Assembly (NCBI GenBank): GCA_947475715.1
Contig: CANJNY010000032.1
Span: forward strand, 1 to 43,174
Length of the DNA: 43,174 nucleotides
DNA from: Prolixibacteraceae bacterium
GTDB taxonomy: Bacteria; Bacteroidota; Bacteroidia; Bacteroidales; Prolixibacteraceae
Direction: 5' to 3'
In this document: positions 5,402 to 34,065 of the stretch, one piece after another
Layout of the letters: each line of letters begins with the position of its first letter
Position numbering within the stretch: position 1 is the stretch's first letter
The notes under the pieces: generated by a model
What the model saw: only the letters and a program-made list of their open reading frames with translations
What the model was told of the DNA's origin: nothing
Database searches by the model: none
Program-made: the position numbers and the translations under genes

Positions 5402-6835
5402 TTACCATACATAAGTCGCAACAGCATCTTTCTCAAGGGAGAGCGAAACCGTGTTATTTTCAAGTGAGATATTAAAATCGATCTTCATTCCCCGGTTATT
5501 CTGAACAATCAGCACGATTTTTCCATCGGGCGTTTTAAATGCCACATTAGGCAGTGCCTCATTGGTATTTGAGCCAATGCGGACCGAACCAGGCCGAACC
5601 AGCTTTGCAGCATGAGCTAAAATATAATAGGCCGGATTACGGGTTACTGCATTTCCATCGATGGTTATCGTTCCCAAACATTCGGTGCACCCTCCCGGGG
5701 TATGGGGATTATTTTTTGGATCGGATGCCAGGTTCCATTCCAGCACATTACGGCACCAGTTTCGGGTCCCTCCGATAATAAGTGTTCTCACATGCCAGGC
5801 CAGATCGCCTGCCAGATTTCCGGGGGCACCCACCCACTGTTCTGTAAAATATAGGTTCTTATCGGGATGAGCATTGTGAACCGGTGTCAATGCCTCGATC
5901 TTTCCGCCATAAAGATGAAATGCCGAACCATCCACATATTTGGCAGCCTCCGGATCATTCAAAATTGTTAGCGGATAATCGGGTTTGTCGGCATTATGGT
6001 CATAAACGATAATTTTTGCGTTAACACCTGAAGCGGCAAAAATAGGACCCAGACTTTGTTTGATAAACTGCCTCTGCTCTTCTGCCGGCATAAACATGCT
6101 CGGATTATTTCCCGGATGAAGGGGTTCATTCTGAATTGTTATCGCATCAATAGTTATCCCCTCACACTTCATCTGTTGAATATATTTTACGAAATACCTC
6201 GCATAAGTATCGTAATATTGAGTTTTTAAGCTTCCCCCCTTTGAATTTTTATTGGTCTTCATCCATGTTGGAGGCGACCATGGTGAACCCAGAATTTTGA
6301 TATCCGGATTAATCGCCAGAATCTCCTTTAGAACAGGGATCAGATCGGTCTTATCGGGCGCCAGCGAAAACTGCGCCAGTGTGCTGTCTGTTTCCCCGGC
6401 AGGGAGATCATCATACGAAAAAACCCGGTCATCGAGATCAGAGGCTCCGATACTGATCCGCAAATAACTGATTCCGATATTATTTCCATCGGTGGCAAAT
6501 AATTCTCTGAGGATTGCCTGCCTGCTTGTGGCATCCATGCGATGTAATAACATGGCACTGCCACCCGTGAGACAATTCCCAAAACCGTCTATTGTCTGAT
6601 ATGTTTGACTTGGATCGATAACAATCTCGGGATCATGACTTACCTTCGATTTAGCGACAAAGCTGAATTTTGAAGACTGAAACAAAACCTTTGATTCAGG
6701 ACTTGTTATCCAGGCTGTTCCGGCTGAATTTGATTTTTCTTGATTCCGCTCATTGCCGGAATTCTTCGCTGCCGTAACCGATCCAACGAAATCCAATGAG
6801 GAAAAAAGAAGGATGAATGCAATTAAAGTTTTCAT
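5402..6835 (-). CDS. GH30 family glucosidase/glucanase (secreted)
   Basis: A 477-residue glycoside hydrolase family 30 enzyme (clan GH-A), close to the usual family length. Residues 1 to about 22 form a Sec signal peptide with no lipobox Cys, so it is likely periplasmic or released. The (beta/alpha)8 barrel spans roughly 70-410 and a short beta-domain follows. The acid/base is Glu237 in ITIQNEPLHPG and the nucleophile is Glu332 in LYFTEQWVG. The N-terminal part carries the family sequence QTIDGFGNCLTGGSA. GH30 enzymes of Bacteroidota PULs are typically beta-1,6-glucanases or beta-glucosidases (subfamilies 3 and 1), so removal of beta-1,6 side glucose from laminarin is the likely job. The exact subfamily cannot be fixed by eye. 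It starts 31 bp after the GH81 gene and is the last PUL gene, with a terminator behind it. A paralogue at 11776-13218 has the same catalytic motifs but a lipoprotein leader. Confidence 0.9.
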   Translation of the reverse strand: MKTLIAFILLFSSLDFVGSVTAAKNSGNERNQEKSNSAGTAWITSPESKVLFQSSKFSFVAKSKVSHDPEIVIDPSQTYQTIDGFGNCLTGGSAMLLHRMDATSRQAILRELFATDGNNIGISYLRISIGASDLDDRVFSYDDLPAGETDSTLAQFSLAPDKTDLIPVLKEILAINPDIKILGSPWSPPTWMKTNKNSKGGSLKTQYYDTYARYFVKYIQQMKCEGITIDAITIQNEPLHPGNNPSMFMPAEEQRQFIKQSLGPIFAASGVNAKIIVYDHNADKPDYPLTILNDPEAAKYVDGSAFHLYGGKIEALTPVHNAHPDKNLYFTEQWVGAPGNLAGDLAWHVRTLIIGGTRNWCRNVLEWNLASDPKNNPHTPGGCTECLGTITIDGNAVTRNPAYYILAHAAKLVRPGSVRIGSNTNEALPNVAFKTPDGKIVLIVQNNRGMKIDFNISLENNTVSLSLEKDAVATYVW

Positions 6836-6866: not shown

Positions 6867-9800
6867 TTATTGTTTTATAAATTTCCGTGTGATAAATCCG
6901 GTTTTATAATCGATTTTAAGGGTGTAAATACCATTCGACAACCAACCTACATTTATTTGATAATCAGTTAATTTACCATTTAAAATCAATTTTCCGCTCA
7001 TATCAAAAATGCTATAATTCAAAACAGTTGGTTGTGAGTTCAGATATAAAATGGTCGAAACCGGATTTGGATGAATCGAGAACTGATCCTCCGGAAGATC
7101 AATGATGCCGGTAGTTCCCCCATCCTGTGTAACTGTAATTATTTGGTTAGCGACTCCGGTAGCTGAAACTGTCAGATTTGCGGTCCTTGAGGCGATTGTA
7201 GGATTTTCAGTTGCGGTTAAAGTAATCGTTCCATTTCCAGAACCAGCTGCCAGGCTTGTGGTCAACCAGCCCTGATCGCTGGATATAGTCCAGCTGATAT
7301 TGGAAGAGATATCAACTATTTTAGTGCTGTTGGCCTGTGATCCGACAGTCAATGCTGACGATGAGCAACTCAAAATCGCTGCTGCACCATCCTGGGTGAT
7401 GGTTATTGTTTTTGATGCGACTCCTGCTCCTGCTACCATTACGGTGGCAGTCCTTGGGGTTATCGCAGGATTTACGCCGCAAGTCAGGGTAACTGTCGAA
7501 TTGCCGGAACCACTTTGATCGCTTAGGGTTAACCATGGTTGGTTACTTGCAACCGTCCAGCTGACATTCGAAGTTATGTCGAATGTTTTTGTACTGTTTG
7601 CCGGAGCCCCGATAGCCAGGATCGCTGTTGACACGGTTAATGTACCTGCAACACTATTTATCAGGTTAATATCGTCGAACAGGAAAGTTGAACTGGCAGA
7701 ACCATCCCCGACGACTCCGAAGTCAAACATAAATGTTAACTTATTAAAAATATTTGAAGTATTTCCGGCAAAATTCCAGGTTAATATTTCCCAGGAGTTG
7801 GCAAGGGTAGTCTTTGCCGACACTTCGGCTGTTGGAACCTTATCCCCTTCGAGTTTAAAAAGAACCGGGATCCCTGCGCGGGAGGAATAAACTTTCATTG
7901 AAAAGGTGGTTGCTGCGGTAAAATCAATCTTAGTATCCAGAGTCAAATAGCTTCCTGCCCATGTTGCACCACCGTTTCTGATGATTTGGGCCACTTTTAA
8001 GCTGGTATTAATCCCTGAGGCATGAGGGTTGGGAATCACGTTGGCAACTCCCCCGTTAAAATCGCTCCAGCTAAAGGTTCCGGTTTCAAAATCAATTGGA
8101 AGTGTAAGTGGTTTGGGAGCCGCTGCCTGGGTAACGACCACCGTTTTTGCAGGTAAACCTCCGCCCGAAATTGTCACAACGGCAACCCGCTCTGCATTGG
8201 CGGAGTTTGCCTGTGCAGTAAGTGTAAGTTGTTTACTTCCGGTACCACCTGAATCACTGATCGAAAGCCAGGGCTGATCGGATGCTGCACTCCAACTTAC
8301 ATTGGAACTGATATAAAGGGTTTGAATGCTGCCGGCAGTGATTCCAATCGTTACATCGGTATTCGAAACAACAAGATACGAAAACCCACCGGCATCCTGG
8401 GTAACCTTAATCATCTGGTCGGCTATGCCACTAGCCGAAACCTTTATGTTAGCAGTCCTGGGAGTTATCGTCCCGTTTTCCAGGGCAGTGACTGTTATTG
8501 TACCATTCCCAAAACCGGTGCCATTATTCAGGGCAAGCCAATTTTGATCACTAACAGCAATCCAGCTGATATTTGAAATAACATCAAACATTTTTTTACT
8601 TCCCGACATCATCGTTACCGCCAGCGAGTTTGTTGATACAGCCAAAGAGGGGGTTGCAATACCTTTGTAAGTAAACGATATCTTACCTATATTAAAACCC
8701 CCATTGTCAAATGCAAGCTTTATAATATGCTGACCTGCAGGCAAAATAACACCTGGAACCGCTTTGGAAGCCCACGAGCTCCAGTTTGAATCGGTGTACC
8801 CAACGTTAATATTGGAAGCAACTGTTGAACCATCCACTTCAATATGGAATGGGCCCCCTCCGGAACCAATTCCCGAGGTATATCGAATTGACAGGTCGTA
8901 AGCGCCAGCCTGTGAAATATTTGCGGTATAAGTAAGCCACTCACCACTTTCGATGTAACTGACCGTATTTCCTTCACCCGCAGTTGCATTGGCATCAACA
9001 TATTCGGGAGTCCGGAATGTGCCCGCCTCATTGGCGGTATTCACATCAAAGTAGGTGATATTCTGACCAATTCCCCCCTCATAAGCGTCATAATTTCCTG
9101 GTTCGATAACCTGAGAAGGAATTGAGACTGCCGCTCCACCATAAGGAACTCTCGAACCCACAATAACTGTCACCACATTTGACAATTGTAATGCTGCGCC
9201 TACATATACTTTGGCCGAAAACCCGTGTACCTTAGCTGACAGAGAGGAAGCCGTAACGGAATAGGGGGCTGTAGCCGAGGTGCCAATAAGTGTCGTTCCA
9301 TCATAGAACTCAACCTTGGTAATTCCCGATCCGTTTGTTGCCGCCGAAAGGGTTACACTTCCATTGGAGGCCACCTGGTTAGCCGAAGCTGTCAGACTTA
9401 CCGTAACCGGGATGTCCTTACTACTCTTCATTGTTCTGGCAGGAATGGCCATCGAGAAACCATCCGACCAGGTAACCGTAATTTCACTGGCGCCATAATT
9501 ATGGGCCACATAAGTTTTATCGCCATTCTTATTAAAGAGTGCCGCAATGGGATAATTTGCAGTAACCGAGGCATCAACAGGGCCGGAACCGTTCAGGCTG
9601 TGCAACCAATGGTAGGTTTGTGCATCGGAACAACCCCCTTTGGGTTTATATCCGGGAAAGTCATCATAAAGTGATATGGCACTTTGCGGATCTGCCAGAG
9701 CCGCATAGGACCAGTAAATATCGTACCAGAGATTGTCATTGGATGTTTTTGCAAGCACACCGGTTTTTGTTTTCATGTCGTTCCACAAATCGCGCACGTA

Positions 9801-11681
9801 CGAAATATTATGACCCAGATAGAGTGAGGCTCCGGTGAGGGGGAACATTTCGATTCCATACATGGCAGCAATATCGCCGGTCCAGAATGTACCGTTATCA
9901 TACCCGTCGCTCCAGAGGCGCGAACACATCAATTGTGAATAATTCGAACTGAAATTCCGCTTATTCATATTAAACCAATACTCTTCGATGCCGGTTTGTT
10001 CGGTGGTATAAAGGTAAATCCCCAAATCTCGAACTGCTGTATTACCGGTAAGTTCCCCCCAGGTTATCAGGGATGCATTGAAATTCATCGCCTCCGAGGA
10101 GGATTCCTGGTTGTTGCCGTGAGGCTCGGTATTGAGCAGTCCGGCAGCAAAACTATGACCGGCATAGGGGTTGAAATTTCGCAGGAATGGAAATTTCAGA
10201 TCTGTTTTATCCCAGTTGGCTGCATCCTTGACGAGCATATTCACCATCGGGCCCCAGTTTGCTGCCCATCCCGGCTGAAACTGTTCCACAGTTGCAGCAG
10301 CACTGATAAAATAGCCATAATGAAAATGGTGATCATTGAGGTTGGCATCGGCCGAGTATCCGGCAGGGTACCCAATCAGGGTGGTCCACATCGTGTTATA
10401 GTAAAACAGGAAGGCATTTTCGCCTGCCTCTGCTTTAAACCAGTTTTCCAGTCGCGTTTTTACGGTATTGATAATCTGATCGCGGGCCTGAGTGTTTCCG
10501 ATCTGATCGGCAATTTTGGCGACCTGAACAAGACGGTTCATCGCCAAACCTTCGTTGTACGAATCGGTCCAGAGTGCAAGCCCCTCCCCTTTTACAAGAT
10601 CTATTTTTGCGTTTAGTGCAGCAGGATCAAATCCCGGACTATATTTGGAAGTATTTGGAAGTGTGGACAAGATCCCTTTGAATTTGTTTTCAATGGTGAA
10701 AGTATTGGATGGCAACATCTTCATCGCTCCACGCGAGGTATTATATGAATAAGCTCCGGGTTGCGGAGAACCCGAACCTAAATGTGCCCACTGATGGGGC
10801 AATAATCCCAATAAAACTGCGGTTCCGGATCCCTCTTTAACATCGGCAGTCACTGAAAAATCAGACCGGACTGTTGAGCTGTTATTGTCATAAGTCCAGT
10901 TTACCGAAGTATTCGACGGGAAAACATAGGCATATTGTTTGAAATCGTTTGCAACGGTTGCCGCCTCTCCACCTGTCGGGAGCATAACCACTGAATAATA
11001 GTTTTTCCCGGCAAGGGATGAGGTATACGTTTTATCCGATTGAATCCATGTTGAGCCGACCGGAGCATAAACGGCAAAATTGGCGCCGCTCAACGAATTT
11101 GTAATAAGTATCATTTCGTTCTGAACAGAAACTACACCAATATTTACGGTAACTGAAGCAATGTCGGAGTTTCCTTTTGTGCAATAAACAAAAGGCATTC
11201 CCATCCCAATGGTGGCGTTGAAATTGTGTCCTGCGCTATTCCACGATGTGGTAACTGTCCAATCGGAATAATCCGAAACGGTCGGATAGGTTCCGGCAAT
11301 ACCGCTTACCCCTAAGATCAGCGGTTGGTCCGGACTCATGGGTTGGCGGGTATCATTTGCCCCTCCGCCTAAAAAAGTATAGCTAAGAATCAACCCCGAA
11401 GGACCACCTTTAAGTGACAAAGGGTAGTTATATAAGTTGGCGCCATTGGTTGCATCATTATTGGTCAGTAATCCTGTCCACCAATCGCTGGTTGCAACCG
11501 GCTTGGTCAATGCCGCTCCTGATAATCTTGGGGTGCCTGCAGGATTTACATTTCTTCCTGCGCCATCAGCCGGGGGCAATTGCATGGTGTAGCTTCCGCT
11601 TCCCACCGGCATGATCTGGCCGGAAAGGTGGAGCGAAACAAGGAAAACCAGGGGCAAAAAAAGCGTATATAATTTGTACAT
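6867..11681 (-). CDS. Modular GH81 endo-beta-1,3-glucanase with Ig, CBM6, BACON repeats, CBM-like module and T9SS signal
   Basis: A 1604-residue secreted multidomain enzyme. A signal peptide (about 1-22) precedes a GH81 catalytic region (about 30-740), recognised by VATSDWWTGLLTN, LPHQWAHL, the active-site Asp450 in NLNDHHFHYGYF and Glu526/Glu530 in NNQESSSEAMN. Next come a bacterial Ig-like domain (about 760-840), a CBM6-type domain (about 858-1004, with DAYEGG and YIESGEWLTYTANI), two BACON domains (about 1014-1095 and 1100-1184), a jelly-roll CBM-like module (about 1192-1340), two more BACON domains (about 1347-1430 and 1434-1519), and a type IX secretion sorting domain (about 1534-1604, FSIHPNPVS ... 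GIYTLKI ... KFIKQ). GH81 enzymes cut beta-1,3-glucan internally. The sorting domain implies export across the outer membrane and likely surface attachment. The CBM-like module resembles the C-terminus of the PKD lipoprotein at 25066-26184. It lies between two GH30 genes. Confidence 0.93.
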   Translation of the reverse strand: MYKLYTLFLPLVFLVSLHLSGQIMPVGSGSYTMQLPPADGAGRNVNPAGTPRLSGAALTKPVATSDWWTGLLTNNDATNGANLYNYPLSLKGGPSGLILSYTFLGGGANDTRQPMSPDQPLILGVSGIAGTYPTVSDYSDWTVTTSWNSAGHNFNATIGMGMPFVYCTKGNSDIASVTVNIGVVSVQNEMILITNSLSGANFAVYAPVGSTWIQSDKTYTSSLAGKNYYSVVMLPTGGEAATVANDFKQYAYVFPSNTSVNWTYDNNSSTVRSDFSVTADVKEGSGTAVLLGLLPHQWAHLGSGSPQPGAYSYNTSRGAMKMLPSNTFTIENKFKGILSTLPNTSKYSPGFDPAALNAKIDLVKGEGLALWTDSYNEGLAMNRLVQVAKIADQIGNTQARDQIINTVKTRLENWFKAEAGENAFLFYYNTMWTTLIGYPAGYSADANLNDHHFHYGYFISAAATVEQFQPGWAANWGPMVNMLVKDAANWDKTDLKFPFLRNFNPYAGHSFAAGLLNTEPHGNNQESSSEAMNFNASLITWGELTGNTAVRDLGIYLYTTEQTGIEEYWFNMNKRNFSSNYSQLMCSRLWSDGYDNGTFWTGDIAAMYGIEMFPLTGASLYLGHNISYVRDLWNDMKTKTGVLAKTSNDNLWYDIYWSYAALADPQSAISLYDDFPGYKPKGGCSDAQTYHWLHSLNGSGPVDASVTANYPIAALFNKNGDKTYVAHNYGASEITVTWSDGFSMAIPARTMKSSKDIPVTVSLTASANQVASNGSVTLSAATNGSGITKVEFYDGTTLIGTSATAPYSVTASSLSAKVHGFSAKVYVGAALQLSNVVTVIVGSRVPYGGAAVSIPSQVIEPGNYDAYEGGIGQNITYFDVNTANEAGTFRTPEYVDANATAGEGNTVSYIESGEWLTYTANISQAGAYDLSIRYTSGIGSGGGPFHIEVDGSTVASNINVGYTDSNWSSWASKAVPGVILPAGQHIIKLAFDNGGFNIGKISFTYKGIATPSLAVSTNSLAVTMMSGSKKMFDVISNISWIAVSDQNWLALNNGTGFGNGTITVTALENGTITPRTANIKVSASGIADQMIKVTQDAGGFSYLVVSNTDVTIGITAGSIQTLYISSNVSWSAASDQPWLSISDSGGTGSKQLTLTAQANSANAERVAVVTISGGGLPAKTVVVTQAAAPKPLTLPIDFETGTFSWSDFNGGVANVIPNPHASGINTSLKVAQIIRNGGATWAGSYLTLDTKIDFTAATTFSMKVYSSRAGIPVLFKLEGDKVPTAEVSAKTTLANSWEILTWNFAGNTSNIFNKLTFMFDFGVVGDGSASSTFLFDDINLINSVAGTLTVSTAILAIGAPANSTKTFDITSNVSWTVASNQPWLTLSDQSGSGNSTVTLTCGVNPAITPRTATVMVAGAGVASKTITITQDGAAAILSCSSSALTVGSQANSTKIVDISSNISWTISSDQGWLTTSLAAGSGNGTITLTATENPTIASRTANLTVSATGVANQIITVTQDGGTTGIIDLPEDQFSIHPNPVSTILYLNSQPTVLNYSIFDMSGKLILNGKLTDYQINVGWLSNGIYTLKIDYKTGFITRKFIKQ

Positions 11682-11775: not shown

Positions 11776-13218
11776 CTATAACCAGATAAAAGTTCCGACA
11801 GCCCCGCCGTTCAGGGAGGTCGTAACCCAACGGCCATTGAATTTGATATTGAATAATTCGCTGGTTGCGCCATCATTTTCAACAATCAAAACCTTCTTTC
11901 CATCTAAAGTTTTAAATGCTACATTATTGAAATTACTGGTCACATTACTGGCAATTCTGACCGAACCTGAAGGGACAAATTTTGAGGCATGAGCGACAAT
12001 GTAATACCCCACATTCCGAATAAAATTATCACTGCTAATCACCGTTACAGCACCCTTGCAGGTATTGCAGCCACCCGGAGTATGGGGTTCAAAGGCTCCA
12101 TTATTCGCCAGGTTCCATTCAAGTGCCACCTTACCCCAATTCCGTGTTGAGCCAATAATAATATTTTTCAGATGCCATTTTAGATCGCCACCGAAATCGC
12201 CTGTTGAGGAGGTATATTGCTCAGTGAAGTAGACATTCTTATCGGGAAAGGCAAGGTGAACCGAAGACATGGCACTAATGTCGCCACCATAAAGATGAAA
12301 AGCAGAACCATCAATAAAAGGATTTGCCGCAGCATCATTTAAGATGGCAATCGGGTAGCCAGGCTGATCACAGTTATGATCGTAAATAACAATTTTCGTG
12401 GTAATATTTGCACGCTGAAATGCCGGACCCAGATTATTTTTAATAAACTCAGCTTGCTGAACAGCAGACATTAGCATACTTGGATTATTTCCACCGTATA
12501 ATGGTTCATTCTGGGGGGTAATTGCCGTAATTGTAATCCCCTGTTCCTTCATTTTCTGAATATAGGTAACAAAGTAATTGGCATAGACAGTAGAATAGGC
12601 AGATTGCAGGCTCCCCCCGATAAAACTGTTATTATCCTTCATCCAAACCGGAGCAGACCAGGGAGTGGCAATAATTTTGATAGCCGGATTAATGACCAGA
12701 ATCTCTTTTAATAGCGGGATTAAATCGGTCATATCGGGAGCCAGGCTAAACTGAGAAAGATTCAGGTCAGTTTGTCCAAATGGCACATCATCGTATGAGA
12801 ATGGGGCATTGTTCAAATCGGATGCACCCAGACTAAGCCGGAGGTAACTAATTGAAATCGAACTAATAGAAATTCCAAAAAGTTCCTGTAGCAATTGCTG
12901 CTTTACTACAGGAGCCAGCGAATTAATTACCTGTGCACTACCACCGGTAAGGGTGAATCCAAACCCATCGATACTTTGAAAGGTTTGTGAATCATCAACT
13001 TCGATGGTTGGATAAATATTGGCTGCTGTTCCAAAACCTAACACGGTGGTTTGCTTCTGAAGAGTAACCGATTGATCCCCTTTAGTGAGCCAGAAATCCA
13101 CTTCATTCTTTATTGGCGGTGGTGGCGGCACAGGAGCAGGACCATCGCCCCCTTTTGTGCAATTTAAAATGGTCGCAGCCGTAGCAATCAGCAGGATAAA
13201 ATTCCTAATTATTTTCAT
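11776..13218 (-). CDS. GH30 family glucosidase/glucanase (lipoprotein)
   Basis: A 480-residue GH30 enzyme. The N-terminus MKIIRNFILLIATAATILNC ends at a lipobox Cys20, followed by a Pro-rich linker (PAPVPPPPP), so it is a membrane-anchored lipoprotein. The acid/base is Glu238 in ITPQNEPLYGG and the nucleophile is Glu333 in VYFTEQYTS. It shares SIDGFGFTLTGGSAQ and the C-terminal PHTPGGC motif with the GH30 at 5402-6835 and is clearly a paralogue. A beta-1,6-glucanase or beta-glucosidase role on branched beta-1,3-glucan is inferred from the PUL context. It is separated from the upstream transporter gene by a 332-bp repeat-bearing gap and from the downstream GH81 gene by 94 bp. The different leader suggests that the two GH30 enzymes work in different places or on different chain lengths. 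Confidence 0.9.
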   Translation of the reverse strand: MKIIRNFILLIATAATILNCTKGGDGPAPVPPPPPIKNEVDFWLTKGDQSVTLQKQTTVLGFGTAANIYPTIEVDDSQTFQSIDGFGFTLTGGSAQVINSLAPVVKQQLLQELFGISISSISISYLRLSLGASDLNNAPFSYDDVPFGQTDLNLSQFSLAPDMTDLIPLLKEILVINPAIKIIATPWSAPVWMKDNNSFIGGSLQSAYSTVYANYFVTYIQKMKEQGITITAITPQNEPLYGGNNPSMLMSAVQQAEFIKNNLGPAFQRANITTKIVIYDHNCDQPGYPIAILNDAAANPFIDGSAFHLYGGDISAMSSVHLAFPDKNVYFTEQYTSSTGDFGGDLKWHLKNIIIGSTRNWGKVALEWNLANNGAFEPHTPGGCNTCKGAVTVISSDNFIRNVGYYIVAHASKFVPSGSVRIASNVTSNFNNVAFKTLDGKKVLIVENDGATSELFNIKFNGRWVTTSLNGGAVGTFIWL

Positions 13219-23846: not shown

Positions 23847-24026
23847 ATAAATAATTTTGAAGAAAGTAATTGAAATTGACAGAACCGGCACACGAATCTT
23901 CTACACCGGTAAAAGCAGGTGCTGAAAGAAAATTAAAATTGATATTGGTAATGAACAAATAGCGGGAACAAAACATAGCATGACAATTGCAGCCAGAAAT
24001 AAATTGTTCTTTTGATCGTGCATTTT

Positions 24027-24116: not shown

Positions 24117-25055
24117 TTAATTAACCGGTACCATTTTGATATACCATGCATTCCCGGTTTCAGTTCCCTGAACCCTAAGGTACATGTAAGAAGAGGTCAA
24201 GACCATAATTTCATATTCCTTCTGAAGGGAACCGTACCCAATATAAGTGTCATTACCAGCCAAAATAATGGCTGTTTTAGTTGATGGTGTTGCAGCAGAA
24301 ATTCCTGAGCTTGATGGAGCGAAGGCAAATGGCCCTGTTCCGCCGGCATAAGGATAACAACCTTCATCGCCTGAACCAGGAATACCCGGGATAGTGGACA
24401 AAGAACCGGTTTTTGTAAATGCACCATCCGGATTCGTTACCTGAAGTGTATACGAATTGGTTGCAGAAACCTTCGCAAATGTGAACGTAGTCGTGTAAAA
24501 ACAATTACAACAAGCCACTTTTTCGTTAACGTTGGCAGCCCACCAGCTAGGTGAAGCATTGTTTGGATCCCATGGACCTACTCCAAAATGACCAGCAACA
24601 CTCTTGTCTACAACCCATGTTTTGGAAGTACTGCCAGTCAAATTTGCAATAACCGAAACATCGGGGGTAAAGGTACTCTTAACCGTTACATCCTTAGTAA
24701 TTGTGGATGAAGTACCTCCCTTACCATAAATTACGGCAGTTATCCGGTAGGTGTTTACACCCAGCGTAGTATATTTATGTGTTGCTGCACCGGTGGATAA
24801 ATATACCAAGTCCAAAGGAGAGTTTGCATCATAATCTACTTTGTACGAAAGTGCATTATCGGCAGAAACAGTTATTTTAACATCCCCTGAACCATCCCCT
24901 TCCGGATTTGCAGCATTTGCACCGGCAACTTCGGCAGTAATCTTCAGGTTTGTAGGAGCACTTAGATCCCCCATTTTATAGCTTTTTTCTCCGCAGCTAT
25001 ATAGGATTGTAAGTATTATAAATAGACCTAGAAGGCTTTTAAATATTAATTTCAT
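24117..25055 (-). CDS. PKD-domain surface glycan-binding lipoprotein (SusE/F position)
   Basis: A 312-residue lipoprotein with lipobox Cys21 (LTILYSCGEKS). Residues about 35-128 look like a PKD/Ig-like domain (APTNLKITAEV ... HKYTTLGVNTYRITAVIYG). The C-terminal part (about 135-312) starts with TGSTSKTWVVDKSVAGHFGV and is rich in Trp, Tyr and Gly. That pattern appears in uncharacterised PUL lipoproteins of laminarin loci. A run of cysteines (VACCNCFY) and a GCYPYAGG motif may form disulfides. By position (third protein after SusC) it is a surface glycan-binding protein, but binding is inferred, not read from known residues. It ends just before the large hairpin. Confidence 0.75.
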   Translation of the reverse strand: MKLIFKSLLGLFIILTILYSCGEKSYKMGDLSAPTNLKITAEVAGANAANPEGDGSGDVKITVSADNALSYKVDYDANSPLDLVYLSTGAATHKYTTLGVNTYRITAVIYGKGGTSSTITKDVTVKSTFTPDVSVIANLTGSTSKTWVVDKSVAGHFGVGPWDPNNASPSWWAANVNEKVACCNCFYTTTFTFAKVSATNSYTLQVTNPDGAFTKTGSLSTIPGIPGSGDEGCYPYAGGTGPFAFAPSSSGISAATPSTKTAIILAGNDTYIGYGSLQKEYEIMVLTSSYMYLRVQGTETGNAWYIKMVPVN

Positions 25056-25065
25056 ATCTCTTTTA

Positions 25066-26184
25066 TTAATTAGTTAATCTAAAATTATCAACATAAATAA
25101 CCTGGCCAATTCCGTCAGCTCCGTCAGCAGCATCATTAAAACGCAAAACAAGTTGAGTGAATTTTGCACCTGCAGGTATGGCTGAAATACCGCTGTAATC
25201 AAATACCAATTCCTCCCAGGCTCCGGATGTTGCAAATGGAATTTTTAATACTGCAACCCCATTTGATGGTGTTCCTCCAACAGCCCATTCCAATTCGATG
25301 TTTAGTTTTTTACCGATCAAAGCGGGATCAGGATTGTAGCCCAATACCTTGATTACTTTTCCAAGAGAAAAGTCGATAGGAGTGTTTAACGGACTGTAAG
25401 TTCCACTCCAGCCTTCCCAGCCTCTGGTTAATTTACCAACTTTAGCGGATGTATTGATACCTGTTGCATTTGGGTTATCAACAGTGGCAAAAGCCTGTCC
25501 ACCACCAAATGTACCGAAGAAGTAACTTACAAATGCGTTGTCAAATGTGATCGGTAATCCAAATGGATCGGTCACTGTAATAGAAACTGTTTTGTCCGAA
25601 GTAGCAGCACCACCGCTTAAGGCAACAACTCTTACATCGTAGTTTCCGGCATTTACATAATCATGTGAAACTTCAGCACCTGTTGCAAGAGCAGTTCCAG
25701 CTTCGTTTACTGCATCGCCAAAGTAAACCGTAAAACCATGTGCATAGTCGGCACTTGCCTTAACCTTTACATTGTGTGCTGTTTGGTTTAAAGTAACCGC
25801 AATTTTCTCAGGTGCCCGGTAGGTAACCTTTAGCGGATAAGTTGTGGTTGTCTCCTTGCCTGCAAGATCAGATGCCTTAACAGAAACAGTATAGCTTCCT
25901 TCAGGATATGAATGGGTAACACTAGCACCGGGCTTAACCACGGCAGAAGCGCCAGAACCGGTTCCATGACCAAACGCCACTTCGAATGCTGACACACCTT
26001 CACCAAGCGGGCTAATCTTAACATTCCCTGAGTTATCGGTACTGAGATCAAAAATCTTGCTCAGATTCGCGGAAGAGACAGTATTCAAAAATGCGAGATC
26101 TTTATCAATACCATCTTTCTGGGTACAACTTATAGCAACAAGCAGCAGAAATGCGATGCTGTATATAAATTTCATTTTCTTCAT
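25066..26184 (-). CDS. PKD-domain surface glycan-binding lipoprotein with C-terminal CBM-like module
   Basis: A 372-residue lipoprotein with lipobox Cys20 (LLLVAISC). Two PKD domains follow (about 45-125, with SYPEGSYTVSVKASDLAG, and about 130-205, with HDYVNAGNYDVRVVALSG). A C-terminal beta-sandwich of about 160 residues begins LPITFDNAFVSYFFGTFGGG and ends VIYVDNFRLTN. This last module matches a domain within the GH81 enzyme of the same locus: both have NPxAxGINTSxKV and WxGxYxxLxTxIDF in the same order. The gene follows susD by 23 bp and precedes the next lipoprotein gene by 10 bp. It very likely holds glucan chains at the cell surface next to SusCD. Confidence 0.82.
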   Translation of the reverse strand: MKKMKFIYSIAFLLLVAISCTQKDGIDKDLAFLNTVSSANLSKIFDLSTDNSGNVKISPLGEGVSAFEVAFGHGTGSGASAVVKPGASVTHSYPEGSYTVSVKASDLAGKETTTTYPLKVTYRAPEKIAVTLNQTAHNVKVKASADYAHGFTVYFGDAVNEAGTALATGAEVSHDYVNAGNYDVRVVALSGGAATSDKTVSITVTDPFGLPITFDNAFVSYFFGTFGGGQAFATVDNPNATGINTSAKVGKLTRGWEGWSGTYSPLNTPIDFSLGKVIKVLGYNPDPALIGKKLNIELEWAVGGTPSNGVAVLKIPFATSGAWEELVFDYSGISAIPAGAKFTQLVLRFNDAADGADGIGQVIYVDNFRLTN

Positions 26185-26207: not shown

Positions 26208-27722
26208 TTATTGATTGTATCCCGGATTCTGAACAAGTTTAGTTCCAAGTAATTCCCTGTTTGGAATCGGGAAGATCTCAGATTTTCCGGCAACAAAACC
26301 TTTTCCTGCCAGTTTGGTGGCAGCATCGCCCCAACGTACAAGATCGAAAAAGCGGAATCCTTCGCCTGCCAATTCCAATCTCCGCTCAGCTTTAATGGCT
26401 GCCAGACTAACCGGTACTGATGGTAAACCAACCCTGGTGCGTACTGCGTCCAAAAGTGCCTGAGCACGTGCCCCTGTTCCTCCGAGTGCCTCAGCTTCCA
26501 ATAGGTAAGTGTCAGCTAAACGGATTGCATAAGTATCCTGCTTGTAATTTAATACCGCATCCCCTGAACCGGTTGATACATCAGATTGCCTTGGAGTAAA
26601 TTTATTTAAGAAATACCCTGTATTTTGATATCCTTCAATATAATCGGCCTGACCTTCAAGTTGCAATGCTTTCATATCCAAAACAGTTGCTCCGAATCGT
26701 GGATCTGACTTAATAACATCGTAAAAATCCTGGGTGAATACATTGAAACTCCATCCTGAAGGTAAATCGGGTGCATTTGGACCTTTTTTAGAGTAACTTC
26801 TTGGACCAGCCATAACATTAACCGTATTTCCTTCGTCGCTTCCACTTCCCCAGTTTCCCCAGCCTGAACTTCCGGTACTACTATGACAAACCTCGAAAAT
26901 TGCTTCTGAATTGAATTTATTGCTTACAACCCAAAGGTCGCTGAATTTAGTAAGTAAACGATAACCATATTGGCTGGTACCACCCGGAGTTCCGTTTACC
27001 TCTGCCAGTTGAGCAGCAGCAAGAGCACCTTTGTTGTCATAAAGGTATACTTTCCCAAGTAAAGCCTGGCCAATACCTTTTGTCAAACGTCCACCTTCGG
27101 TTGCAACCGGAACAGTGGCAGGCAAATCAACAATGGCCTCTGTAAGATCCTTTTCGATCTGTGCATAAACTGCTGCAGGAGTTGCCTGAACAACATCATA
27201 CATATCACTTGCAGTTAGCGGTTCTAAAAGCAACGGGATATTTTTAAACATCAATACCAGGTTAAAGTAGTAATAGGCACGCAATGCTTTTGTTTCAGCA
27301 GTAAACCTTAGCTTTAATGCAGCATCCATCTTCACATTTTCAATTTTGGATAACAGGGTATTTGCCCTGAAGATCCCCTGGTAATAGTCATTCCAGAAAC
27401 TTTCCGGTACAATTAACTGAGTTAATGTAAAGGTGTTAAAACCCTGAATTCCGGCACCATCAGTTGATCCGCCACCACCTGCATACTGATCATCAGATCC
27501 TGCATTCATCATGGTAATCATATTTTCAAAACCGCCTGAATTCTTGCGCACTACATCATAAACACCAACAAGTGCTGAAAAAGCCTGATTTTGGTCTGCG
27601 TAGTAATTTGCTGTAAGGAATTGTCCTTTGGGCTGGACTTCAATAAATCCTTTTTCGCACGATACCAGTGAAATTATCCCGGCAACTGCTATAAATAAGT
27701 ATTTAATTACTTTTTCTTTCAT
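26208..27722 (-). CDS. susD: SusD/RagB-family outer-membrane nutrient-binding lipoprotein
   Basis: A 504-residue SusD homologue, the usual length, with lipobox Cys22 (GIISLVSCEKGF). The N-terminal FIEVQPKGQFLTANYYADQNQA and the TPR-like helices (RANTLLSKIENV, ETKALRAYYYFNLV) are typical. The C-terminal RagB/SusD region has YAIRLADTYLLEAEALGGTG and ERRLELAGEGFRFFDLVRWG, ending with PIPNRELLGTKLVQNPGYNQ. It caps the SusC channel and binds the incoming oligosaccharide. It starts 13 bp after susC. Substrate preference cannot be read from sequence; beta-1,3-glucan is inferred from the enzymes encoded downstream. Confidence 0.97.
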   Translation of the reverse strand: MKEKVIKYLFIAVAGIISLVSCEKGFIEVQPKGQFLTANYYADQNQAFSALVGVYDVVRKNSGGFENMITMMNAGSDDQYAGGGGSTDGAGIQGFNTFTLTQLIVPESFWNDYYQGIFRANTLLSKIENVKMDAALKLRFTAETKALRAYYYFNLVLMFKNIPLLLEPLTASDMYDVVQATPAAVYAQIEKDLTEAIVDLPATVPVATEGGRLTKGIGQALLGKVYLYDNKGALAAAQLAEVNGTPGGTSQYGYRLLTKFSDLWVVSNKFNSEAIFEVCHSSTGSSGWGNWGSGSDEGNTVNVMAGPRSYSKKGPNAPDLPSGWSFNVFTQDFYDVIKSDPRFGATVLDMKALQLEGQADYIEGYQNTGYFLNKFTPRQSDVSTGSGDAVLNYKQDTYAIRLADTYLLEAEALGGTGARAQALLDAVRTRVGLPSVPVSLAAIKAERRLELAGEGFRFFDLVRWGDAATKLAGKGFVAGKSEIFPIPNRELLGTKLVQNPGYNQ

Positions 27723-27735: not shown

Positions 27736-30700
27736 TTAAAATTGTAATTGTACACCAAGCATAATTGACCGTGCCTGAGGATAAATTCCCTTATCTATAC
27801 CAAAAACACCCCCACCAATTTCAGGATCGTAACCGGTATATTTTGTTATAGTCAATAAATTTTCGGCACTTAAATAAAGGCGCAATTTGGATAATCCGAT
27901 TTTACTGTAAATGCTACCTGGCAACGAATACCCAACCTGAACTACTTTAAGACGAACATAGTCACCGTCCTCTAAATAGAAGTCAGACATTTTACCAAAG
28001 TTTCCGTTTTTATCATCACTTGTAAGACGAGGGTAGGTGTTCGAAGTTCCATCACCTGTCCAACGGCTTAAAGCAACGGTTTGCCAGTTTGAATTATTAA
28101 TGTCCAATCGGCGTAAGCCCTGGAAAATTTTACTTCCGGCTGCTCCCTGAGCAAATACCATCAAATCAAAACCTTTATAATCAAAATTCAGTGTTAAACC
28201 GAAGGTGTATTTAGGAATATTGCTTCCCAAAAATGTTTTATCCTTATCGGTAATTACACCATCCTTATCGGTATCAACCCAGCGAAAATCACCCGGTTTA
28301 GCATTTGGCTGAATCAATCCACCTGTTGAATTGGTATTTGCAGCAATCTGAGCGGCATTCTGGAAAATTCCGGCAGTCTTGAAACCATAAAATGAGTTAT
28401 ACGACTGACCAACCTGTGTTCTGGTTACCGGTCCCATTGACTGAAAAGAGGCATCACCTGAAATAAAATTAGCATCAGAAGCAATATAGGTTACTTCATT
28501 TTTAAGGTAGGCCACATTGCCATTTGCTGAAAAATTAAGCTCACCGAAATTCTTGCGATATCCCAATTCGACTTCCAAACCGCTGTTCTTCATGTCGGCA
28601 ATATTACTAACCGGTGCGCTGGTAACACCCACATATCCCGGAATAGTTACCGGTCTTAGAATACCTGAGGTTTTTTTCTGATAATAATCAACGGTCAAAC
28701 TTAAAGAATTAAAGAACAATGCATCAAATCCAACGTTGGTCTGACTTGTTTGTTCCCATTTTAAACCCGGGTTATCCAAAGAGGCAGGAGAATAACCAGG
28801 AGTAATTGTACCTGTATTTCCGGCAGCATAATTGAACCCACCGCCAACAGTGGCAAGATATCCAAAATCACGAATAGCATCGTTTCCTACGACTCCGTAA
28901 CCCCCTCTGATTTTTAAGGTATTGATCACATCATTGGCTTTCCAGAAATCCTCTTTAGAAGCAACCCATCCTAAAGAGAAGGAAGGAAATACACCATATT
29001 TATGATCTGCTCCAAATCGTGAAGATCCGTCACGGCGATAGATACCTGTAAACAGATATTTTTCTTTGTAATTATAATTTAAACGGGCAAAGAGTGATGT
29101 GATCCGATGCTCAACATAATCCCAGGCACCACCCACTCTGTTTTTTGAATCGGGAATATTAAAGCTAAATGAAGCATCTTTATAACTGGATATTGGTAAA
29201 TCATAAAGAGTTACCCCTGAACCACCACCCATATTGTCTACATAAGCTCCCTGACCGAGTAATATATTTAAATCGTGATCAGAAATTTTCTTGCTGTAAC
29301 TAATTGTATTCTCCATATTATAATTCAGAACATTCTCATTCTGTTTATAATAGTTGTTTTTCAATACCGAATTGGTAGCGCTTAAGTACGAAACGGGAGT
29401 GAAAGCCTGGTTACCCCAATATGCCAGTTTTGAGCCAATTGATGATTTAATGATCAGGTCTTTTGTAATATTGGCTTGCAGATATGCATTCCCAACAAAA
29501 TTGTCAGACCAACCGAATGAACCTAAACGGGTTTGGATATAAGCAAGCGGGTTCGTCATTTCCTGACCAACGATAGAGGAGATCCCATAAGGATTACCAT
29601 TTGAATCCCGGATTACAGGATTTGAATTATAAGGAGCCATTGCGGCAGCAGCAGCATCAGTTATCGTTATAGGGGTAACTGGATCAAGGTTCACAGCTGA
29701 AGATAACGGACCACCGAATTCACTGTTGGTATTTCCAATACCTAATTTCTTTTGATGGGTATATCCAATAGTCTGTCCAAATGTAAATATTTTGGACATT
29801 TTGTGTGTTGAGTTTAAACGAAAATTCTTTTGAGTAAAATTAGAGATATCCGAAGCGACAATACCTTGCTGATCCTGGATACCAAATGAGAGGTAAAAGG
29901 TTGATTTTTCATTACCACCACTCATGCTTAATTCGTGCGTGTAACGTTTGGCACTATTATTAAAGATTGCTTTTTGCCAATCGGTTCCTGTGCCCAAAGC
30001 ACCCAGGTTCGAAAAAATAACATCACCACCTCCGGCAACAGATCTTTCATTTAAAAGAGCTCCATATTGAGTAGCATTCAGAAGGTTCAGAGTTTTTGAA
30101 GGACTTGAAGTGCCATAAAAACCATTGTAATTAACCGATAATTTTCCGGCAGACCCTTTTTTGGTAGTTACCATAATTACACCTGTTGCTGCTCGTGTTC
30201 CATAAATAGCGGCAGATGCGGCATCTTTGAGAACTTCGATCGATTCAATATCCGACTGATTGAGGTAGTTAATACCACCTGCATCAACAACAACACCGTC
30301 AACAACCCAGAGTGGATTATTTCCACCACCAAATGTGGTGATACCACGGACCCTGATTGTATAACCATCACCAGGCTCTCCTGAATTTGATGCGATAGTC
30401 ACACCGGCAACACGACCTTGCAATGCCTGCTCTGGCCGTCCAGGTGCAACTTTTTCAAGATCCTTTGCTTTAATGCTTGAGATTGCCCCAGTCACGACAC
30501 TCTTTTTCTGCGTGCCATAACCAACCACGACCACTTCATCAATGGCCGCCACTGTTGAAACCAGCGCTACATTGATTGATCCACGGTTATTGACACCCAC
30601 TTCCTGTGAGTTTAAACCGACAAACGAAAAGACCAGAGTTGCATTTCCGGGTACCTTAAGGGTATAATTCCCATCAATATCTGTGGTAGTACCAGTTGTT

Positions 30701-30840
30701 GTCCCTTTCACCACAACACTGACGCCCGGAATAGGCTGTCTGTCTTCGGCAGAAGTAACAACCCCTTTAACTTGTATACCTTGTCCGTAACCAAACAATG
30801 AGCATACAATAATTAGAAGAACTAAAATTGTTTTTTTCAT
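27736..30840 (-). CDS. susC: SusC/RagA-family TonB-dependent outer-membrane transporter
   Basis: A 1034-residue TonB-dependent transporter of the SusC type. A signal peptide (about 1-20, LVLLIIVCSLFGYGQG) is followed by a CarboxypepD_reg-like domain (about 22-100, VKGVVTSAEDRQPIPGVSVV ... DIDGNYTLKV), the DEVVVVGYGTQKK motif, and a plug domain (about 110-215, LQGRVAGVTIASNSGEPGDG, NPLWVVDGVVVDAGG, IESIEVLKDAASAAIYGTRA). The rest is a 22-stranded barrel ending YPQARSIMLGVQLQF. It imports oligosaccharides across the outer membrane with SusD, using TonB-ExbBD energy. It is the first gene of the main PUL transcript and is preceded by a 309-bp AT-rich control region with repeated motifs. Confidence 0.97.
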   Translation of the reverse strand: MKKTILVLLIIVCSLFGYGQGIQVKGVVTSAEDRQPIPGVSVVVKGTTTGTTTDIDGNYTLKVPGNATLVFSFVGLNSQEVGVNNRGSINVALVSTVAAIDEVVVVGYGTQKKSVVTGAISSIKAKDLEKVAPGRPEQALQGRVAGVTIASNSGEPGDGYTIRVRGITTFGGGNNPLWVVDGVVVDAGGINYLNQSDIESIEVLKDAASAAIYGTRAATGVIMVTTKKGSAGKLSVNYNGFYGTSSPSKTLNLLNATQYGALLNERSVAGGGDVIFSNLGALGTGTDWQKAIFNNSAKRYTHELSMSGGNEKSTFYLSFGIQDQQGIVASDISNFTQKNFRLNSTHKMSKIFTFGQTIGYTHQKKLGIGNTNSEFGGPLSSAVNLDPVTPITITDAAAAAMAPYNSNPVIRDSNGNPYGISSIVGQEMTNPLAYIQTRLGSFGWSDNFVGNAYLQANITKDLIIKSSIGSKLAYWGNQAFTPVSYLSATNSVLKNNYYKQNENVLNYNMENTISYSKKISDHDLNILLGQGAYVDNMGGGSGVTLYDLPISSYKDASFSFNIPDSKNRVGGAWDYVEHRITSLFARLNYNYKEKYLFTGIYRRDGSSRFGADHKYGVFPSFSLGWVASKEDFWKANDVINTLKIRGGYGVVGNDAIRDFGYLATVGGGFNYAAGNTGTITPGYSPASLDNPGLKWEQTSQTNVGFDALFFNSLSLTVDYYQKKTSGILRPVTIPGYVGVTSAPVSNIADMKNSGLEVELGYRKNFGELNFSANGNVAYLKNEVTYIASDANFISGDASFQSMGPVTRTQVGQSYNSFYGFKTAGIFQNAAQIAANTNSTGGLIQPNAKPGDFRWVDTDKDGVITDKDKTFLGSNIPKYTFGLTLNFDYKGFDLMVFAQGAAGSKIFQGLRRLDINNSNWQTVALSRWTGDGTSNTYPRLTSDDKNGNFGKMSDFYLEDGDYVRLKVVQVGYSLPGSIYSKIGLSKLRLYLSAENLLTITKYTGYDPEIGGGVFGIDKGIYPQARSIMLGVQLQF

Positions 30841-31149: not shown

Positions 31150-34065
31150 CTATAAGTCAATGATCAGGCTTGTAAGGTTGGTATCGCGGTCAATATTTAA
31201 CTTTTTGCGAACCCGATACCGGCAAATCTCCACTCCCCGGATTGAAATATTCATTAGCGGGGCTATCTCTTTGGTAGAGATATTCATCCGCAGGTAGGCA
31301 CAAAGCCTAAGCTCTTTGGGGGTTAAAGTGGGGTATCTGGCTTTAAGCCGATTTAAAAAATCTTCATGAACCTCATCAAACGCTGTCTCGAATACCTCCC
31401 ATTGTTTGTCATGATCGACATCCTTACTGATTTTGCCAATCAGGGAGGAGACCTTGCCCCTGAGATTTTCATCTGTCAATACCACTTTAATCCGTTCCAG
31501 GTCATCCTTAATCCTGGCAAGGAATTTGTTTTTATGGATTAAATCCATGGTTTGGTTGGCCAATTCTTTATCGCGGTGAATCATCTCATTCTTGAGTTTC
31601 TCATTTTTGAGCTCAATAATCTTTTTTTCGGCAAATGCAGCCTGCTGAATATAGTCGCTTTCTTTTTGACGGTATTCCTTCAGATGCTTAATCCGCTCTT
31701 TGCGCCTGGAGATCTCGAGACGTTTTAAAAACAGCCAGACGGACAATATTGCAAACAGAATAAGAATTAAAAAATAGCCTAACAATGCAATAAACGAGCG
31801 ATACCACGGCGGGCTCACGGTAAACTGTAATTCATCACTCCGGCTCTCTACTCCAAGAGAATTTCGAGCCTTCACATTAAACCCATAATTTCCCTCGGGA
31901 AGCTGTGCAAACTCAACCGAAGGAGAACTACTCCATCCTGACCAATCGTTATTCAGGCCTGATAATTTAAAACTATACTCAACACTCGAAGGATTATCAT
32001 ATATCGGAGAGGCATAATAAAATTTAAATGCATTTTTGGCATATCCGAATTTATATTTAGTGTTTAATTTCCCTTTTTGCAAAGACCATGAATTACCATA
32101 ATAGAAGGAGCTATCCAGATTCAGGGCAACGGCTTGTGTTATAAAGGCCGAAAACTCGGGGTTATAACTGAAGTGGGCTGTGGGCGAATAGTGGGCAAAG
32201 CCATCCTCTGTACCCATAAACAGATGATCTTTTGAATATGGGTAAATTGATTCAAATCCGCTAATAAATTTGCCATTGAGTAAAACGAATGGAGTACTAA
32301 TGTGCTTATAGGACCCATCCTCCTGCATTCTGAAAACTCCTGCCCGATGCGTGGAATGAAACCATGCGATATACCAGATATTCCTGTTTTCGTCTTCGCG
32401 CAAATAGGTAAAATCAATTAAAGGATAGAGAAGCTGACTGAAATTCATGCTTTTTTCAAAGCGCTCATTTTGTGCGTTATAAAGGTACAAGCCGGTATTG
32501 GCGGCAAACACAACCTGACCCTTAATCTTAAAAACATTGAGGTTATAATTGGTTGGAAGGCCATGCATGGTTGTATAAAACTGATATGTTTTTACCTTTC
32601 CAAGTTCATTGCCAAAACTAATTTTATAAATCCCTTTGAACCCGTGGCTCATCCATAGATTCCCCTCATCGTCCTCTTCAAAGATTCGGAAAGACTCACT
32701 AAATCCTTTAATTCTGTCGACAAATTCCCATGAGTTGTTATTCTTCTTAAAAAGGATCATCCCGCTATAGGTACCACCGACCAAATAATTCGGAAACCGC
32801 TTGAGAATATGATATTTCCATCCCCCTGGAATATTGCAGATCTGTCTTGCATGCTCCCCTTCAATGGTAAAAGTCCCCTTGTTATGTCCACAAATCAAAA
32901 TGCCGTCAAAGACCCCTAATGACCAAACCTGTCCTGAGGTATTGGGAATTAACCTCAAACTCCCATTTTGGTCATTTTCATTCCAGTCCTTAACAAATAG
33001 CCCCTGATTTGTCCCAAGGTAGAGTTTCCCCTGATAGACAATTGAGGTATATCCTGCCCCGATTTCTTCGGATTGTTTTAAAAATGTGATCGGGGAATTA
33101 ATGTTGATATAGTCGATTCCATTATCGAGTCCCAGCCATAAATCGCCTGATCGGTCTGTAAACACTTTCAAAACCGTATTATTTTGCAAACCCTTTTTCC
33201 TGTTGATCATTTGCACAATCTCACCTTGCTGGTCACAAATAATCACACCATCCTGAATAGTTCCAAAAGCATAATTTCGATTCTGAATCAGGGTTGCACT
33301 AAAGATCTGATTCGTTTTAAGATATTCATTAACAGGTGATCTCCATTCAATTAATTGTTTGCCATTATAGGTAAAAAGCCCCTTGTTTAAGGTACAAATT
33401 AAAAGCTGATCCCCATCAGCCAATGGAAGTATTGCACAGATCTCATCCCCCTTTAAAATTTGGCAACCGGGTAGTTCAACCAACTTATCACTAATGAGTT
33501 CGTATAAACCTTTCTCAATATCATTGAAAAAAAGCTTATCCTTTACTTTGTAGGAATTTTGAAATCTTACCGGGGCCTTAATGACATTAATAGTTGAATC
33601 ATTTGCAAAAATAAAGGCATTAAAATAGGATTGAAATACGATCTTACCATCGAAGGAGTGGAGATTCCAGATATCATCAAAATTTTGATATTCGACAGGA
33701 ATATATTTTTTGAGAGACTTAAATTCCAATTTACCATTGTTTCGATATTCCATTTTGCCTAATTCATTATAGGCACCGACGTAAATTGTTCCATTGTCAG
33801 CAATATGAACTGAACGGGTAATCGAGGAATTTGGCATTTTATATAATTGCCAGGTTACCCCATCAAAGACCAGAAGCCCTTCATTATTTGCAAAATACAT
33901 AAATCCCTTTTGATCCTGTGCGATCCCCCAGGTCTGAGTACCCGCCTTGTATTCCCTTTTAGGATAATTACGAATAAAGGGAACACCAATATTTTTGATC
34001 TGGGAATACCCGGAATTCAAAAATATCAGGATAAGCAGAATGACAACCGGTAATCTTCTTGTCAT
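31150..34065 (-). CDS. SusR-like membrane regulator: propeller sensor, Y_Y_Y domain, TM, coiled coil, LuxR-type HTH
   Basis: A 971-residue one-component PUL regulator. A signal peptide (about 1-21) leads into a periplasmic beta-propeller region (about 25-660) with recurring blades such as WGIAQDQKGFMYFANNEGLL and FTDRSGDLWLGLDNGIDYI. Next are a triple-tyrosine (Y_Y_Y) domain (about 670-755, VEYSFKLSGLNNDWSGWS ... GNYGFNVKARNSLG), a single TM helix (about 756-780, LLGYFLILILFAILSVWLFL), a charged coiled coil (about 785-890), and a C-terminal LuxR/GerE-type HTH (about 906-971, TPKELRLCAYLRMNISTKEI ... GVEICRYRVRKKL). It has no histidine kinase or receiver domain, so it is not a hybrid two-component system. 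It probably senses a glucan fragment in the periplasm and activates susC. It has its own promoter and a terminator lies upstream of it. Confidence 0.93.
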   Translation of the reverse strand: MTRRLPVVILLILIFLNSGYSQIKNIGVPFIRNYPKREYKAGTQTWGIAQDQKGFMYFANNEGLLVFDGVTWQLYKMPNSSITRSVHIADNGTIYVGAYNELGKMEYRNNGKLEFKSLKKYIPVEYQNFDDIWNLHSFDGKIVFQSYFNAFIFANDSTINVIKAPVRFQNSYKVKDKLFFNDIEKGLYELISDKLVELPGCQILKGDEICAILPLADGDQLLICTLNKGLFTYNGKQLIEWRSPVNEYLKTNQIFSATLIQNRNYAFGTIQDGVIICDQQGEIVQMINRKKGLQNNTVLKVFTDRSGDLWLGLDNGIDYININSPITFLKQSEEIGAGYTSIVYQGKLYLGTNQGLFVKDWNENDQNGSLRLIPNTSGQVWSLGVFDGILICGHNKGTFTIEGEHARQICNIPGGWKYHILKRFPNYLVGGTYSGMILFKKNNNSWEFVDRIKGFSESFRIFEEDDEGNLWMSHGFKGIYKISFGNELGKVKTYQFYTTMHGLPTNYNLNVFKIKGQVVFAANTGLYLYNAQNERFEKSMNFSQLLYPLIDFTYLREDENRNIWYIAWFHSTHRAGVFRMQEDGSYKHISTPFVLLNGKFISGFESIYPYSKDHLFMGTEDGFAHYSPTAHFSYNPEFSAFITQAVALNLDSSFYYGNSWSLQKGKLNTKYKFGYAKNAFKFYYASPIYDNPSSVEYSFKLSGLNNDWSGWSSSPSVEFAQLPEGNYGFNVKARNSLGVESRSDELQFTVSPPWYRSFIALLGYFLILILFAILSVWLFLKRLEISRRKERIKHLKEYRQKESDYIQQAAFAEKKIIELKNEKLKNEMIHRDKELANQTMDLIHKNKFLARIKDDLERIKVVLTDENLRGKVSSLIGKISKDVDHDKQWEVFETAFDEVHEDFLNRLKARYPTLTPKELRLCAYLRMNISTKEIAPLMNISIRGVEICRYRVRKKLNIDRDTNLTSLIIDL

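Follow-up and report, generated by a model that had tools for sequence, protein, structure and literature searches.

A branched β-glucan utilization locus that probably ends in cytoplasmic phosphorolysis, with a rare companion enzyme of GH149, in a Prolixibacteraceae bacterium

The DNA analysed here (the window) is the entire contig C32, 43,174 bases long, of a Prolixibacteraceae bacterium whose genome comprises 5.77 Mb in 315 contigs and is 98.9% complete. Fourteen genes at 5402-34065, all on the minus strand, make up a SusCD-type polysaccharide utilization locus (PUL) predicted to act on β-1,3/1,6-glucan. In order of transcription they encode a regulator, SusC, SusD, two lipoproteins, two glycoside hydrolases (GH) of family GH16, a GH149 phosphorylase, a GPH carrier, a 332-residue clan GH-A enzyme that we named GHA335, a second GPH carrier, and a GH30, a GH81 and another GH30 enzyme. 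SusC adjoins SusD and at least two carbohydrate-active enzymes (CAZymes) are encoded, which is the arrangement that defines a PUL in Bacteroidota. A preliminary description, made from the letters alone, had placed all of these parts on one strand. They were all found there, and the gene order recurs in two genomes of the same family: G086 (on two contigs, the first carrier not being seen at the break) and the second locus of G093 (without GH81). We propose that the locus probably serves the use of branched β-1,3/1,6-glucan by a route that ends in cytoplasmic phosphorolysis. The genes are as follows, with signal peptides and lipoboxes judged from hydropathy and by eye.

31150..34065, minus strand: one-component membrane regulator with a signal peptide, Reg_prop propeller, Y_Y_Y and LuxR-type helix-turn-helix domains (Pfam), and one hydrophobic helix at about residues 755-785 (hydropathy)
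27736..30840, minus strand: SusC-like TonB-dependent transporter (Pfam)
26208..27722, minus strand: SusD-like glycan-binding lipoprotein (Pfam; lipobox)
25066..26184, minus strand: PKD-domain lipoprotein, putative surface glycan-binding protein (Pfam; lipobox)
24117..25055, minus strand: second lipoprotein, putatively glycan-binding, without a Pfam family (lipobox)
22635..23891, minus strand: GH16 lipoprotein with a Calx-beta domain, putative surface endo-β-1,3-glucanase (Pfam; lipobox)
21295..22584, minus strand: GH16 lipoprotein (Pfam; lipobox; best solved match laminarinase 3iln, 271 bits)
17815..21285, minus strand: GH149 β-1,3-glucan phosphorylase, 1156 residues, presumably cytoplasmic (NF058639; 6hq6; active-site residues)
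16341..17804, minus strand: MFS_2/GPH-type inner-membrane carrier adjoining GH149, putative oligosaccharide importer (TIGR00792, 177 bits, below the cut-off of 231)
15305..16303, minus strand: GHA335, 332-residue clan GH-A enzyme (signal peptide; predicted acid/base E138 and nucleophile E224)
13551..14912, minus strand: second GPH carrier (TIGR00792, 390 bits, above the cut-off)
11776..13218, minus strand: GH30 lipoprotein (best solved match 5ngk, 265 bits)
6867..11681, minus strand: GH81 endo-β-1,3-glucanase with Ig-like, CBM6 and BACON repeats and a type IX secretion system (T9SS) sorting tail (6fop, 463 bits)
5402..6835, minus strand: GH30 with a signal peptide (best solved match 5ngk, 296 bits; NCBIfam BT3312 model, 423 bits, below the cut-off of 700)

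The regulator had no HisKA or HATPase kinase domain in Pfam at E 0.001.

No Pfam family matched the 1156-residue protein at E 0.001. The NCBIfam GH149 model NF058639 matched with 1676 bits (cut-off 1150) from position 2 to position 1132 of its 1134. Among solved structures, the GH149 enzyme 6hq6 aligned to residues 8-1150 with 1254 bits, while the next two entries scored 53 and 50 bits. The active site of GH149 has been described as a WND catalytic motif, an RD motif and a histidine (PMC6771811). These correspond to W653-N654-D655, R472-D473 and H959 and were invariant in 79/79 sequences of an alignment of the window with 78 of 80 named GH149 loci (GH149 longer than 1100 residues). By sequence the protein is a member of GH149, as had been proposed, and the phosphorolytic activity of the family is taken from the literature. 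Its N-terminus is not hydrophobic and shows no visible signal peptide, so it is probably located in the cytoplasm. Cytoplasmic phosphorolysis is thus the best reading of the family assignment, the full active site, the lack of a visible signal peptide and the two neighbouring GPH carriers. The nearest named relatives of this GH149 come from records of a Bacteroidia, Bacteroidales or Bacteroidetes bacterium. GH149 was also seen in records titled Lentisphaerae, Limisphaerales and Acidobacteria (L053, L077, L098, L107), which are metagenome-assembled genomes in which binning errors are possible; these lie beyond the GH149 host groups named in the 2018 paper, as far as its accessible text goes (PMC5827456).

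The two GPH carriers are 24% identical to each other, and we rejected a recent duplication on this ground. In several flavobacterial and other loci (L054, L061, L069, L074, L085, L095, L096, L099, L106 and others) the carrier reads as a single open reading frame (ORF) of about 780 residues; GH17-MFS (major facilitator superfamily) fusions are mentioned in PMC10108472. Among the glucan-cutting and binding proteins, lipoboxes were seen in both GH16 enzymes, the GH30 at 11776..13218, SusD and both extra lipoproteins, and signal peptides in the GH30 at 5402..6835 and in GHA335; GH81 ends in the T9SS tail. The two GH30 enzymes are 53% identical to each other, and both have as best solved match 5ngk, which we take to be BT3312 of subfamily GH30_3. 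The GH30 matches to 5ngk and to the BT3312 model, together with GH81, make β-1,3-glucan with β-1,6 linkages the likely substrate. The enzymes would fit any branched or insoluble β-1,3/1,6-glucan, laminarin being one candidate and fungal wall glucan another.

Neither GH3 nor GH17 was found within the window. GH17 was also not found in the host genome with Pfam model PF00332 or with two GH17 alignments (E up to 1e-10), of which one scored 10/10 and the other 14/21 candidates. Because the PF00332 search of the host genome had no positive control, the search was widened to the order and then to the family. Across the order PF00332 matched in 18 of 247 genomes, and each of the two alignments found GH17 in 17 of the 140 genomes of the family. 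GH149 was present in 27 of these 140, among them 16 of the 17 with GH17; the exception, G023 (76% complete), carries its GH17 piece at a contig start.

The surroundings of GH149 were compared in 50 loci, namely those of the 80 named loci (L numbers) that extended 6 kb or more to either side of the gene. Gene classes were assigned by phmmer (E up to 1e-10) with the proteins of the window and the GH3 and GH17 proteins as queries; SusCD counts are lower bounds owing to the flank limits, and the hypergeometric values from this comparison (1e-7 and 5e-13) ignore relatedness. The named loci and the family genomes (G numbers) overlap (L043 is taken to be G012, L046 to be G093 C41 and L066 to be G089), and the two sets are not to be summed. 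A GPH carrier was present in 43/50 loci and GH16 in 42/50, and 35 of the 43 carrier-holding loci had a GH17 of the cytoplasmic type. The frequency of carrier and GH16 and the recurrence of the gene order in relatives speak for an arrangement beyond chance. The GH17 proteins fell into two types, mostly without a hydrophobic N-terminus. Several relatives hold two GH17 genes between GH149 and the carrier: both lack a signal peptide in G085, G094 and the first locus of G093, and in G035, G062, G063, G108 and G107 one has a signal peptide and one does not, according to type. In G012 (C53:73056-73629 and 70443-71414; L043/L199) the gap between GH149 and the carrier contains the head of one GH17 (model 1-135) and the tail of another (285-337), apparently the remnants that a single deletion would leave.

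A GH149 tree (quick search, SH-aLRT support only) was built from 23 family and 12 named rows, excluding G095 and the partial GH149 of G123, G033, G087 and G118, and GH17 presence labels were set by hand. The window grouped with the second locus of G093 and G086 (support 100) within a set of 11 rows (support 98). Cytoplasmic GH17 is kept in some rows of this set and missing in others, and 5 changes along the tree are required to account for its presence. GH17 appears to have been lost in the clade of the window, and with these genes gone GH149 would be the only apparently cytoplasmic β-1,3-glucan enzyme in the locus.

The gene for GHA335, which lies between the two carriers, was rare and closely tied to GH149. 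Orthologues with 66-82% identity were found in 11 of the 140 family genomes, the host included, and in 9 of these 11 a distance of at most 4 kb separates the gene from GH149 on one contig. As to the remaining two, G086 has both genes at contig ends, and G023 yielded no GH149, its contig beginning just before the carrier. A search of the phylum that was independent of GH149 found GHA335 in 3 of 395 genomes, the host again included. The other two, of family f142, have it directly next to GH149 but on the opposite strand. Both genes also occur in a culturable relative, Algibacter luteus (locus L105). A hydrophobic N-terminus was present in 19/19 orthologue rows (duplicates included), and a cytoplasmic location of GHA335 was rejected accordingly. 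One orthologue (L044:18459-20348) carries about 300 further residues at its C-terminus, a fusion of 629 residues in total, and in the G012 locus the GHA335 gene reads with one internal TAG.

Enzymes of clan GH-A have a TIM barrel with an NE pair after strand 4 and a glutamate at strand 7. In GHA335, N137-E138 and E224 were invariant in 9/9 aligned orthologues, and the predicted structure (predicted template-modelling score, pTM, 0.81; mean predicted local distance difference test score, pLDDT, 79; residues 276-314 poor) has eight barrel strands, which places the enzyme in the clan. Only a TIM barrel was matched (PF02836). Foldseek ranked GH2 β-galacturonidases best, GH158 next and GH157 at rank 40 (we take entry 6pal to be GH158); among the 50 matches listed, query TM scores were 0.59-0.69 and identities 14-24%. 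Assignment to three known families was considered and rejected. For GH158 the match was 50 bits over residues 59-209 only, compared with 309 bits over 34-438 (9oro) for a GH158 enzyme from a GH149 locus. For GH157 a single-sequence search gave 29 bits and a profile search 35 bits, against the GH157 entry 9g4n and against 9fz9, an entry that resembles 9g4n in length and scores. GH2 enzymes carry sugar-binding and Ig-like domains ahead of the TIM barrel, and GHA335, with 332 residues and the TIM barrel alone matched, is not a full GH2. LaGH157 (9g4n), GH158 (9oro) and GH2 (6ncw) share with GHA335 the TIM barrel and the clan GH-A acid/base and nucleophile, but profile search gave them only 35, 52 and 46 bits and Foldseek identity was 19-24%. 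Solved entries of GH157 and GH158 include complexes with laminari-oligosaccharides.

Other GH149 loci carry clan GH-A enzymes of another type, with 415-435 or about 1050 residues. The shorter form compared with GHA335 at hhalign 99.9% and 32% identity, and GH158 from a GH149 locus at hhalign 99.7%. Within the 50 loci this other type or GH158 was present in 35, GHA335 in 7 and none of them in 9, and two of the three length classes occurred together in 2. Inspection by eye showed a DGWWK-G motif near the barrel end in most GHA335 orthologues (the window has DEWWK), in the type of about 430 residues and in entry 9fz9. Weak matches to the GH72 glucanosyltransferase model came from two relatives and from two members of the other type, one of the three matches being above the cut-off. 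These findings suggest that GHA335 is an exported β-glucan enzyme which prepares oligosaccharides for import. More tentatively, and with the balance of our judgement on the other side, it may represent an undescribed GH family that occurs only as the periplasmic partner of GH149 and shapes β-1,3/1,6-oligosaccharides for the carriers and GH149, and that may have let the clade drop GH17, leaving phosphorolysis as the only cytoplasmic step for β-1,3-glucan.

In the proposed pathway, the surface GH16 lipoproteins and the T9SS-secreted GH81 would cut the polymer, and SusCD would move the fragments into the periplasm. There the two GH30 enzymes would remove β-1,6 linkages, while GHA335, whose activity is putative, would trim or rearrange β-1,3 pieces. 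The GPH carriers would then bring in linear β-1,3-oligoglucosides, which GH149 would shorten with phosphate to glucose-1-phosphate and finally glucose, and phosphoglucomutase-family genes elsewhere in the genome (two PGM_PMM matches) could feed glycolysis. Phosphorolysis may save ATP in this way. In aquatic settings β-1,3-glucans form a large store of carbon, and the energy that bacteria gain from them depends on whether they are hydrolysed or phosphorolysed. A locus with a phosphorylase as its only apparently cytoplasmic β-1,3 enzyme is a good place to test this energy question, and GHA335, rare and so far seen only beside GH149 where the surroundings are readable, is a concrete candidate for a missing step.

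Several observations weigh against this pathway, and some of them favor a mixed fate, in which the GH30 enzymes, GHA335 and unlinked GH3 enzymes hydrolyse most oligosaccharides to glucose in the periplasm and GH149 salvages a minor linear stream that reaches the cytoplasm. Both GH30 enzymes and GHA335 carry export signals. The host genome has 10 GH3 matches above the Pfam cut-off, on 8 other contigs and some cut by contig ends; five GH3 ORFs show visible signal peptides, and GH3 was linked in 15/50 GH149 loci. A 483-residue GH1 without an obvious signal peptide and three GH94-model matches above the cut-off (the best one cut by a contig start) were also found in the genome. Together with GH3 these mean that other routes exist. 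A mixed fate is nevertheless harder to square with a window that has no GH3, with two GPH carriers near GH149 that suggest oligosaccharide import, and with GH30 enzymes that are of the β-1,6 type by nearest relative, and we regard it as plausible rather than probable. The preliminary description had gone further and let cytoplasmic phosphorolysis take the place of periplasmic hydrolysis. Its phosphorolysis is well supported by GH149, the absence of a visible signal peptide and the carriers, and as a general idea had already been published for GH149 loci (PMC5827456); that it supplants periplasmic hydrolysis finds no support across the genome, given the export signals on both GH30 enzymes, on GHA335 and on GH3 enzymes encoded elsewhere. 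Its remark that GH3 and GH17 are lacking held for the window; in the whole genome GH17 was again not found, but GH3 was.

GH17 was unmatched in 11/27 GH149-positive family genomes, some of them outside the clade of the window, and 3 of the 43 carrier-holding named loci had no GH17 of any kind. Outside the clade, G089, G092, G034 and G119 lacked GH17, G124, L047 and L097 had only exported types, and L050 had none within its flanks. The absence of GH17 is therefore not special to this locus. The apparent scar in G012 may stem from faulty assembly, GHA335 finds its best fold matches among GH2 β-galacturonidases and not among glucanases, export was judged by hydropathy and eye, and both substrate and direction of the carriers are putative. 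The target could also be fungal or oomycete wall glucan, or a β-1,6-rich glucan, and not algal laminarin. We consider this alternative a serious contender, if somewhat short of an even chance: both GH30 enzymes match 5ngk best, 38 of the 50 other GH149 loci carried a distant type of GH30 and 1 the type seen in the window, and only 2 of the 50 had the window's type of GH81. Laminarin is favored instead by one GH16 with a laminarinase as best solved match and by bloom data in which GH81 and GH30_1 were counted as laminarin enzymes (PMC11573768). That GH149 works in reverse and makes a β-1,3-glucan store from glucose-1-phosphate is very improbable and was rejected, since the neighbours of the gene (SusCD, glucanases and carriers) are those of a degradative locus. 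Import followed by cytoplasmic phosphorolysis remains our preferred account.

No match was found in Rfam and tRNA scans of the window. Two genes for Rpn-family PD-(D/E)XK nucleases in opposite orientation, at 4128-5171 (plus strand) and 42267-43154 (minus strand), bracket the locus and its neighbours; the copies share 94.6% DNA identity over 802 bp and 85% over 237 bp, and the contig stops just beyond the second. An M20 peptidase gene and an MFS gene (34208-37106) lie upstream of the regulator, in the same order beside the regulator as in G089 and G092. The contig starts with a COX1-type protein with a NorB cytochrome-c-like domain, similar to nitric oxide reductase (3-2033, plus strand).

Comparison with published systems is limited to the accessible parts of the cited sources. 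Most Bacteroidetes GH149 genes lie in PULs or CAZyme clusters with GH16 and/or GH17 together with GH3 and/or GH30_1, and type II clusters add a pfam13347 inner-membrane carrier and a cytoplasmic GH17 (Kuhaudomlarp et al. 2018, PMC5827456). Consistent with those loci, the window combines GH149 with GH16, GH30, SusCD and carriers, such loci having GH30 or GH3, SusCD or a TonB receptor and, in type II, the carrier. It differs in having neither GH17 nor GH3, in GH30 enzymes nearest to 5ngk, and in GH81, two carriers and GHA335. Laminarin PULs expressed in blooms are written GH149-GH0-GH30_1-GH17 and GH149-GH0-GH16_3 (PMC10108472). They resemble the window in pairing GH149 with an unclassified GH (GH0) in one locus; the first of the two also has GH17, which the window lacks. 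The Muricauda laminarin PUL likewise has GH149, GH16, GH30 and an MFS carrier, with a LuxR-annotated regulator in many clusters; unlike the window with its small GHA335, it has two GH17, a GH2-annotated enzyme and, in some clusters, GH3 instead of GH149 (PMC13188888). The Bacteroides 1,3-glucan utilization loci share SusCD, GH16_3 and a clan GH-A endo-glucanase (GH158), but end in a periplasmic GH3, and no phosphorylase is named in the text available (PMC7157763). One published suggestion is that absorbed oligosaccharides are the substrate of GH149, which would act on them either within the cell or in the periplasm (PMC11573768). No description of a GH149 PUL with a small GH-A enzyme and without GH17 was found in a partial literature search, most subscription journals lying outside it. 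The type of locus was thus already published in 2018; within the literature covered, what appears new here is the apparent loss of GH17 in this clade and the rare GH149 companion GHA335.
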